Program-made: the position numbers and the translations under genes | Source of the DNA: Shouchella rhizosphaerae | GTDB lineage: Bacteria; Bacillota; Bacilli; Bacillales; Bacillaceae_D | Direction: 5' to 3' | Length of the DNA stretch: 64,000 nt | NCBI RefSeq assembly: GCF_900142675.1 | Contig: NZ_FRBS01000003.1 | Coordinates: 434,001 to 498,000 of the forward strand | Notes under the pieces: generated by a model | Seen by the model: the letters and a program-made list of their open reading frames with translations, nothing else | Database searches by the model: none | Told to the model about the DNA's origin: nothing | Part shown: positions 35,437 to 36,965 of the stretch, piece by piece | Layout of the letters: each line of letters starts with the position of its first letter | How positions within the stretch are numbered: the stretch's first letter is position 1

Positions 35437-35554
35437 CTAAAACATCCTCCGTTTGATAATGGCAAGCCTATTATCAAAATCCAGATGATTGGCAAAAGGA
35501 CATGTTCCTATTTTGTTTTCAGAGATAACGTTTTATAACTTTGGGGAAAATTCT

Positions 35555-35560
35555 TATAAT
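35555..35560 (+). promoter_or_regulatory. possible -10 box of the rap-phr pair
   Basis: A perfect TATAAT lies about 68 bp above the Rap start codon. The sequence 17 bp upstream (TTTATA) is a poor -35 box, so the promoter may need an activator. No clear ComA box was seen. Confidence 0.4.
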
Positions 35561-35627: not shown

Positions 35628-36722
35628 ATGGGGAGGACGATACGTTCTGAATCGGTTGGGGCAAAGATTGCAGAATGGTATAGTTGCCTTCTTTCTAAGT
35701 CATATGAACAGGCGATTATTTTAAAAGAAGAGGTCAAACAGCTTCTACCAGCGATGGACCCAAGCGACAAGTTTATGGCCTTCTACTCACTAGTCGAATT
35801 TAAACACCAGATTTTAGTCAGCCGTTACGATAAAAACGAATGCCCTGAGGAAATAGAACCGATTTCTGAAAAGACCGAAATCGATCACCTTCTCAAGTAT
35901 CTCTATTACTTTGTTAGCGGCCAATACGAGTTTACGCAAGAACGGTACCGGTCCGCTGTAAAGCTGTTTCGCAAAGCCGAACGACTACTAGAATACGTAA
36001 ACGACGAGGCGGAGGAAGCGGAATTTTATCAATATATTGGCCTTGTTTATTATCGTCTCAACCACTATTTGATTGCTTCGTCCTACATGGAACAAGCAAA
36101 CGTCCTATTCGATCGGCTTCAATATCATGAGCCAGCGATAAACTGCCAAATCATCACTGCTTGTATTCATCAAGAGTTGAACAACCCTGAAAAAGGCGAA
36201 GCCATCTTAAAACAGGCGCTAGAGCGTGCTAAAGGCATTCCAATTGTATATGGACAAGTGTTGCGGACGCTAGGTTTAAACAAGCAAGGCCAAAAAAAGT
36301 TTGACGAGGCGGAAACGTATTTTAAACGAGCGCTTGACATCCCTGAGCACAAAAACACCATTTTCGGTGCCAAATCTAGATACAATTTGAGCAACGTGCT
36401 CTTTAATCAAGGAAAAATCGAAGAGGCTCTCCCACACTTCCAAATTGCAAAAGCAGGTGCCGCCTACTACAAAAGCAAAGAATACAACGCACGCTGCTTA
36501 TTTACGGAAGGCCTTCACATCGATAAAAACTATGATTTGGTTGACCAAGCCATCGCACAGCTCCAAAAAGAAGGAATGGACTTTGAGGTGAGTGAACTTG
36601 CTGAAGAAGCTGCTCACTTTGCAGAAAAGGAAGGAAATACGAGACTGGCATTGAAATATATGAAAGTGGCCCATGGTGCACGCTTATACCAACATACTTT
36701 AGGAGTTGATTCCGTTGTTTAA
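35628..36722 (+). CDS. Rap-type TPR regulator
   Basis: A 364-residue cytoplasmic protein of the RRNPP/Rap family. Residues about 1-75 form the three-helix bundle (IAEWYSCLLSKSYEQAI...FYSLVEFKHQILV) and about 95-350 form TPR repeats, e.g. AVKLFRKAERLLEYVNDEAEEAEFYQYIGLVYYRLNHYLIAS and AETYFKRALDIPE. The TPR part binds a Phr peptide. At the position of the phosphatase Gln47 of RapH this protein has Asp47 (MDPSDKF), so it may act by binding rather than by dephosphorylating a response regulator; this is inference. ATG 35628 follows GGAGG. The downstream phr-like frame overlaps its end by 8 bp. Confidence 0.9.
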   Translation: MGRTIRSESVGAKIAEWYSCLLSKSYEQAIILKEEVKQLLPAMDPSDKFMAFYSLVEFKHQILVSRYDKNECPEEIEPISEKTEIDHLLKYLYYFVSGQYEFTQERYRSAVKLFRKAERLLEYVNDEAEEAEFYQYIGLVYYRLNHYLIASSYMEQANVLFDRLQYHEPAINCQIITACIHQELNNPEKGEAILKQALERAKGIPIVYGQVLRTLGLNKQGQKKFDEAETYFKRALDIPEHKNTIFGAKSRYNLSNVLFNQGKIEEALPHFQIAKAGAAYYKSKEYNARCLFTEGLHIDKNYDLVDQAIAQLQKEGMDFEVSELAEEAAHFAEKEGNTRLALKYMKVAHGARLYQHTLGVDSVV

Positions 36723-36933
36723 GAAAAAGTTGGTCGTTTCACTTGTCGTCTCTTTCATCGCAGCAGCTTCATTTGTTGTTTTTACAAACACACAGGCTGA
36801 CAGTGAAATAAATAGCCGCGATAAAGGGGACATTACTTTCATTGACAGCCATGATAAAGGCGACATTACTTCCATTGACGACCGTGATAAAGGGGATATT
36901 ACTTTCATTCATAAGGCAAAGCTAAACGTTTAA
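36715..36933 (+). CDS. Phr-type signalling peptide precursor with three tandem pheromone repeats
   Basis: A 72-residue exported precursor paired with the Rap gene. TTG 36715 is chosen: AGGAG lies 9 bp upstream, and it overlaps the rap stop, as phr genes often do. After a signal segment (KKKLVVSLVVSFIAAASFVVFTNTQA) come three 11-residue repeats, coded by exact 33-bp units at 36811-36843, 36844-36876 and 36877-36909. They read NSRDKGDITFI, DSHDKGDITSI and DDRDKGDITFI. The core DKGDIT is invariant and, with a basic second residue, fits the pattern of mature Phr penta/hexapeptides. Export, cleavage and re-import would let it inhibit the Rap protein. A terminator follows. Confidence 0.82.
   Translation: MFKKKLVVSLVVSFIAAASFVVFTNTQADSEINSRDKGDITFIDSHDKGDITSIDDRDKGDITFIHKAKLNV
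36811..36909 (+). repeat. three 33-bp tandem repeats inside the phr gene
   Basis: Each unit encodes 11 residues ending in I. The units share GATAAAGG.GA.ATTACTT.CATT and differ at few positions, several of them synonymous, which indicates selection for the DKGDIT core. Confidence 0.9.
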
Positions 36934-36940
36934 TGTTACT

Positions 36941-36965
36941 AGAGAGCCAATCGGTTCTCTTTTTT
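36941..36965 (+). terminator. terminator of rap-phr
   Basis: AGAGAGCC pairs with GGTTCTCT (one G-U) around a 4-base loop and is followed by a T run, 8 bp past the phr stop. Confidence 0.85.

Follow-up and report, generated by a model that had tools for sequence, protein, structure and literature searches.

A probable Rap-Phr cassette in Shouchella rhizosphaerae with three DKGDIT units in its precursor

A pair of overlapping genes in Shouchella rhizosphaerae is, in our judgement, very likely to be a Rap-Phr quorum-sensing cassette with the ligand DKGDIT, a peptide that we would expect to be exported, matured, imported and bound. It lies in the 64,000-nucleotide stretch analysed here as a whole (‘the window’; contig NZ_FRBS01000003.1, positions 434,001 to 498,000). 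The small reading frame at 36715 to 36933 very probably encodes the Phr pheromone precursor beside a Rap, and is a further case of the known multi-copy Phr precursors; more unusual is the receptor, which has neither the ‘anchor’ Asn conserved in most Raps nor a Gln or Glu at position 47. The locus bears on the question of pheromone copy number as a tuner of the quorum threshold.

The rap gene and the adjoining precursor

The features of the locus, in window coordinates, are as follows:

35532 to 35560, + strand: sigma-70-like promoter match 5' of rap, TTTATA-17-TATAAT (pattern match only)
35628 to 36722, + strand: rap, 364 aa, Rap-family receptor with RapH_N three-helix domain and TPRs (Pfam, PDB matches, AlphaFold2, Foldseek)
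36701 to 36705, + strand: AGGAG, likely phr ribosome-binding site, within rap (sequence)
36715 to 36933, + strand: phr, very probable pheromone precursor, 72 aa, TTG start (reading of the ORF; orthologues at the same position)
36715 to 36798, + strand: putative Sec-type signal peptide, with FKKK, a hydrophobic core and TQA before the likely cleavage site (recognised solely by eye and by a hydropathy filter)
36820 to 36837, + strand: pheromone core copy 1, DKGDIT
36853 to 36870, + strand: pheromone core copy 2, DKGDIT
36886 to 36903, + strand: pheromone core copy 3, DKGDIT, with nine residues after it
36941 to 36960, + strand: intrinsic-terminator-like hairpin then T run, where the rap-phr unit probably ends (pattern match)

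The larger protein is a genuine Rap by domain, sequence and predicted fold. It matches Pfam RapH_N (PF18801) at E 1.3e-23, and its matches in the PDB are RapI, Rap3T, RapJ and RapF (E 4e-30 to 8e-28). An AlphaFold2 model built with 41 family sequences (pLDDT 90.5, pTM 0.87) retrieved Rap structures as the first 23 Foldseek matches, and combines the RapH_N three-helix domain with a TPR superhelix of Rap length. TM-scores by query length were 0.84-0.88 to peptide-bound Rap3T, RapJ, RapF and Rap105, 0.67-0.74 to the pLS20 Rap with and without peptide (its peptide-bound chains reaching only 0.70-0.74), and 0.59-0.66 to apo RapI, apo RapF and the target-bound RapF and RapH chains.

Along the chromosome the genes run cggR (-), rap (+), phr (+), a glutaredoxin-like gene (-), rpoN (-) and clpP (+), the flanking names having been assigned by eye from translations. 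The phr gene lies directly downstream of rap on the same strand and overlaps it, stop included, by 8 bases; its TTG at 36715 is nine bases 3' of AGGAG and its stop ends at 36933, with a longer listing of the same ORF beginning at a TTG (36706) that abuts AGGAG. Among the Rap loci listed, GG(A/G)G stands some 10 bases 5' of most phr starts. Terminator-like patterns numbered 2 against 1.5 expected from shuffling, and sigma-70-like promoter patterns 6 against 3.4 expected.

The original prediction described a 33-bp unit repeated three times in a small gene overlapping a Rap gene, with DKGDIT identical in every unit and its flanks variable; coordinates, frame and repeat are as described. Tandem Repeats Finder places the array at 36820-36909 (period 33, 2.7 copies, 85% matches, score 138), the top-scoring of the five tandem arrays that it lists in the window. 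From first copy to third, the cores are preceded by NSR, DSH and DDR and followed by F, S and F, and all have Lys as the basic second residue looked for in a Phr peptide. When the residues after position 30 were shuffled 100,000 times, no hexapeptide ever appeared three times, and one appeared twice in 28 of the shuffles. With at least two identical or near-identical pheromone copies per precursor as the definition, this is a multi-copy Phr; none of its copies is C-terminal, so that each would need cuts at both ends.

In collections with one genome per species, the family search found matches in 17 of 41 genomes, 123 in all at E 1e-15. Examined were 102 loci, namely 101 of these matches (most fragments were left out) and L024, a named record that duplicates L034. 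In 88 of them a phr core was assigned by eye; L024, which was not relabelled, is among the other 14. One scan of a contig collection gave seven loci, L026 and L027 among them with a match confined to part of the TPR stretch. The small ORF in the 88 loci looks secreted, carries a comparable core and has its start anywhere from 58 bases ahead of the rap end to 14 bases past it; an identical 4-base overlap of its start with the rap stop recurs in 67 of them, and the listed start is 17 bases before the rap end in seven, including the window and its orthologues.

Such regularity bears on the suggestion that the array acts elsewhere, for instance as a secreted antimicrobial, and sits beside rap by chance. 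For the small protein no Phr-family profile matched in Pfam, NCBIfam or PHROGs (Pfam and NCBIfam matches were all far below the curated cut-offs, and PHROGs gave none at E 0.01), as chance adjacency would have it; however, a comparable small ORF at the rap end in 88 of 102 Rap loci, together with peptide and receptor residues that vary together (see below), makes this extremely improbable. The pairing originally predicted, of a Phr-type precursor with an adjoining Rap-type receptor, is supported by the domain and fold matches of the Rap, the overlap, the orthologues and the conserved core.

Unit number and constraint on the core

Close relatives had been predicted to vary in repeat number whilst keeping the repeats in frame, and this is what we find. 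A small-protein search of 13 genomes of the genus matched four at E <= 0.01, with 3, 4, 4 and 6 units, in frame in all; the listed ORFs are 75, 86 or 108 residues long, at 11 residues per unit. The three orthologous loci of sister species, with 4, 4 and 6 units in frame, have Raps that are 97-99% identical, and the site offers a natural dose series of 3, 4 and 6 copies beside near-identical receptors. The genome belongs to the S. clausii group, with orthologous loci present in S. clausii AKU0647 and S. tritolerans. The site between cggR and the glutaredoxin-like gene holds rap in four of the 13 genomes (G000, G001, G010 and G011), with no rap match in the stretch examined around it in the other nine; cggR adjoins the glutaredoxin-like gene in eight of these, and in the ninth (G004) the 1.5 kb examined did not contain cggR. 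Gain of the cassette at this site probably took place within the clausii group. A recent mobile-element origin of rap was considered and dropped, only distant plasmid and phage Raps having matched: 26 plasmid records at E <= 1e-30 (27.8-29.2% identity in the ten listed) and 13 phage records at E <= 1e-20 (26.3% in the ten listed).

The core is under strong constraint. Thirteen distinct units (three from the window, six from G001 and four from G010; G011, identical to G010, was left out) gave pN 0.011 and pS 0.371 in the core (pN/pS 0.03), against pN 0.282 and pS 0.557 in the spacer (0.51). For comparison, rap has pN 0.006 and pS 0.158 against G001, and pN 0.012 and pS 0.166 against G010. The six-codon register that starts at D1 has the lowest pN of the 11 circular registers, and among all 462 choices of six positions 5, the D1 register included, reach its pN. 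Codons 3, 4 and 5 of the core show synonymous changes only, and 12 of the 13 units encode an identical core; the sole replacement, K to Q in the second of the six G001 units (DQGDIT), removes the basic residue.

As to the mature peptide, DKGDI and DKGDIT had both been proposed. The hexapeptide is the most likely signal, because seven of the nine single-copy loci in the clade of 13 rows to which the window Rap belongs terminate exactly at core residue 6 (DKGDMT, DKVEIS twice, DKAEMT, DKGETT, DKVDIS and DKADIS); the D1 register, best conserved, points the same way, and DKGDI is not favoured. The other two single-copy loci, L038 and L039 (the closest paralogue, its Rap 74% identical), have EKVDIT followed by a ten-residue tail, so the rule of a C-terminal core is not universal.

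Synthesising these observations, we propose a model for how the cassette might work. The rap and phr genes would probably be translated from one message, with the precursor exported by Sec and extracellular proteases cutting on both sides of each core to yield up to three DKGDIT per precursor; the peptide would then be taken back up through an oligopeptide permease and switch off the adjacent Rap by binding in its TPR groove. Predicted contacts are those of peptide K2 with Rap E183 and of D4 with K249, D1 lying near N253. Since phr overlaps rap and probably shares its message, the number of units would set the pheromone:receptor ratio, and so shift the cell density at which the Rap is silenced. 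That unit number sets the dose in this way is plausible, and we give it an even chance. The further idea that the copies make the response to density steeper finds no support: extra identical copies should scale peptide output by a fixed factor, moving the threshold and leaving the curve no steeper, unless binding were cooperative.

It might be argued instead that unit number is neutral, with 33-bp units slipping or recombining and one copy already sufficient to silence the Rap. Consistent with this, units 4-6 of G001 are nearly identical in DNA, which suggests a recent expansion, and 68 of the 88 loci have a single core (counting the first phr gene only and allowing a single mismatch at most over the first five residues); concerted evolution by unequal exchange could also homogenise the cores. 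But the core is kept in all but one of 13 units, which would be unexpected if selection on surplus copies were relaxed, and arrays of two to six cores occur in 20 of the 88 loci (two in seven, three in six, four in two, five in two and six in three), the multi-copy state requiring at least three changes on the Rap tree (where L089 is also labelled multi-copy). We think neutrality rather unlikely.

Less probable again, and in our view quite unlikely, is that the copies serve as a reservoir for divergence, dose being irrelevant, as in the Even-Tov model, in which duplication provides a promiscuous intermediate for a shift of specificity; that model was proposed and experimentally illustrated for RapK2 (PMC5199041). 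Two arrays hold a variant of the kind it calls for, the DQGDIT unit of G001 and a GRHDFH among the five cores of L083. Against it, the core is identical, and strongly constrained, in the remaining 12 of the 13 units compared, the sole divergent unit has lost a charge expected to be necessary for binding, and every copy in Phr3T and Phr105 is reported to be active and open to maturation (PMC11343458).

Multi-copy precursors are also found in RRNPPA subfamilies as NprX, PapR and AimP, whose receptors carry a DNA-binding domain; the window phr is like them in its copies, whereas its receptor is a Rap without such a domain. In the literature, up to six precursor copies are given for RRNPPA subfamilies (PMC9765709) and up to eight for pheromone precursors (PMC11343458, where a DNA-binding domain is stated for RRNPPA receptors in general). 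A multi-copy Phr is less of a novelty than had been implied. Identical and varied intragenic repeats of Phr autoinducers were described in 2016 (Even-Tov; PMC5199041), and by its legend S11 Fig A of that paper shows duplications in other Bacilli, B. clausii among them; the figure may well include an orthologue of the window phr. The text of the paper gives no B. clausii sequences, and the species ‘ladder’ of unit numbers, the codon test and the receptor covariation come from the present analysis, although the intragenic or whole-gene duplications of the RapK2-PhrK2 variants and other duplicated phr genes in it are alike in kind. Two precursors, Phr3T and Phr105, were tested in 2024, and their internal copies need particular proteases (Felipe-Ruiz 2024, PMC11343458). 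Phr105, from phage phi105, has two identical ERPVGT copies and resembles the window phr in having Rap-adjacent identical copies with a short spacer; its extra copies, too, are proposed to raise the pheromone:receptor ratio (PMC11343458). It differs in having two copies, one of them C-terminal, with Arg2, where the window group has three to six, none C-terminal, with Lys2 and Asp4, and in being phage-borne rather than at a fixed chromosomal site. Our search of article text (figures not included) returned no paper on Shouchella Rap/Phr and none naming DKGDIT.

Multi-copy cores across the family fall into the groups DKGDIT, DKADGR and GKHDFH/GKHEFT/PKQEF/PKHEH. Two further six-copy precursors were seen, that of L079 (G006) with GKHEFT in 16-residue units and that of L070 (G009) with GKHDFH and short spacers of varying length. 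Behind one rap, a second phr-like gene follows the first at L003, L007, L031, L049, L050, L054, L076, L078 and L096, often with a diverged core (DKTDIAS then DKADGVS, for example).

The receptor and its peptide

The known structures of RapF-PhrF and RapH-Spo0F (PMC3601957, PMC3035606) share with the window Rap the same fold, the peptide groove and an acidic residue opposite peptide residue 2; at four positions the window Rap departs from them (Asn227 to Thr214, Gln47 to Asp47, Tyr226 to Arg213 and Gln263 to Lys249). RapF grips Arg2 of its peptide with Asp194 and has Gln263 at residue 4, and Phe266 is a listed contact of residue 1 (PMC3601957). The window equivalents of RapF 194, 263 and 267 are E183, K249 and N253, the last directly after Y252.

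Our 88 receptor-peptide pairs, which could serve to derive a recognition code, suggest that the receptor changes along with its peptide at positions that are known contacts or lie close to them, if not in a fully robust manner. The tests were exploratory, with residues 2 to 5 and 1 tried in several forms. For residue 4, Lys at RapF-263 occurs in 64 of the 67 loci with an acidic residue there and in 7 of the 21 others; nine phylogenetically independent pairs, about 5.7 agreeing and 0 opposed, rank this column first of 347 over 88 rows, at a median sign-test p of 0.03 uncorrected for the columns tried. Without seven rows (L119, L117, L118, L063, L111, L105 and L046) it comes fourth of 347, on 2.9 of 6 pairs. 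The link between residue 1 and RapF-267 ranks first of 347 both with all 88 rows and with the seven left out: Asp goes with Asn in 30 of 31 loci and Gly with Asp or Glu in 22 of 28, Glu going with Asn in only 2 of 8. Position 267 adjoins Phe266 but is not itself among the listed contacts. In a control with 23 pseudo-traits (9-16 changes, imperfectly matched to the real traits), the maxima lay between 0.34 and 0.55 net per pair; on the same scale residue 4/263 scored 0.63 and residue 1/267 scored 0.55. Residues 3 and 5 had weaker leading columns, with RapF position 155, a listed Arg2-pocket residue, second for both. A pairing of Arg213 with peptide Asp4 was also considered and dropped, as Raps with His or Tyr at that position likewise have an acidic residue 4.

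At residue 2, all 80 Raps whose peptide has K or R carry E or D at the RapF-194 position, and the eight loci lacking a basic residue have Ile in five (one clade) and Glu in three. This is no statistical proof, since only two pairs are independent, one agreeing and one not differing. The five Ile loci (L067, L068, L069, L072 and L078, all Shouchella) have YVQPIAGH-type peptides with V or T at residue 2 and would form a pheromone class without the usual charge pair; the three others (L108, L109 and L113, from a sister genus) have the core GQANTGR, with Gln at residue 2, and a Rap that still has Glu at 194.

The peptide-backbone anchor, Asn227 of RapF, is Thr214 in the window Rap. This Asn is widely conserved in Raps, at 93.4% (PMC6123732), but is not a defining feature: it is present in 17 of the 88 Raps with an assigned phr, and the family shows that the 71 without it still keep their phr genes. 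Its absence speaks against peptide binding by the window Rap, in that Thr in RapP (N236T) makes that Rap insensitive to PhrP (PMC6123732), and N236 is most likely the equivalent of RapF N227 and window Thr214. The same survey covered a single B. clausii genome, the only one known at the time; all six of its Raps lacked the Asn (Thr in two, Ser in one, Ala in three), and all six were counted as orphans (PMC6123732). Putative autoinducers are, however, marked for the six in PMC5199041, and in the genome studied here, that of another isolate, a phr accompanies the intact Raps L001-L005 and L007, with none assigned to L006, L008 and L010; together these make the orphan count look doubtful.

Position 47 of RapH, where Gln or Glu is needed for Spo0F dephosphorylation and Asn is inactive (PMC3035606), is Asp47 in the window Rap, in an alignment ungapped there against RapF, RapJ and RapI; the residue expected of a Spo0F phosphatase is thus absent. 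Across the 88 Raps with a phr, the position is Asp in 70, Glu in 12, Gln in two (L117, L118), K in one and R in one, with two truncated. The genome encodes a Spo0F (L137, E 1e-40) and yields 48 receiver-domain matches in all, and the window Rap may block Spo0F without dephosphorylating it, or act on another receiver-domain protein. Tentatively, and with more doubt than conviction, we would picture the Shouchella Raps as a ‘rewired’ branch, in which most members lack the anchor Asn and most have Asp for the catalytic Gln, acidic Lys-bearing peptides are read via a Lys/Asn pair on one groove helix (K249 and N253 in the window), a response regulator is targeted without Spo0F dephosphorylation, and the threshold at this locus is set by counting units (three, four or six) in an overlap-coupled precursor.

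The genome holds 13 matches to the window Rap, some of them broken and the weakest, L013, doubtful. At L011 and L009/L012 the rap is truncated or stop-ridden, yet the phr behind it looks intact (EKVDIT and EKVEIGG cores), and these phr genes could possibly encode signals without a receptor of their own.
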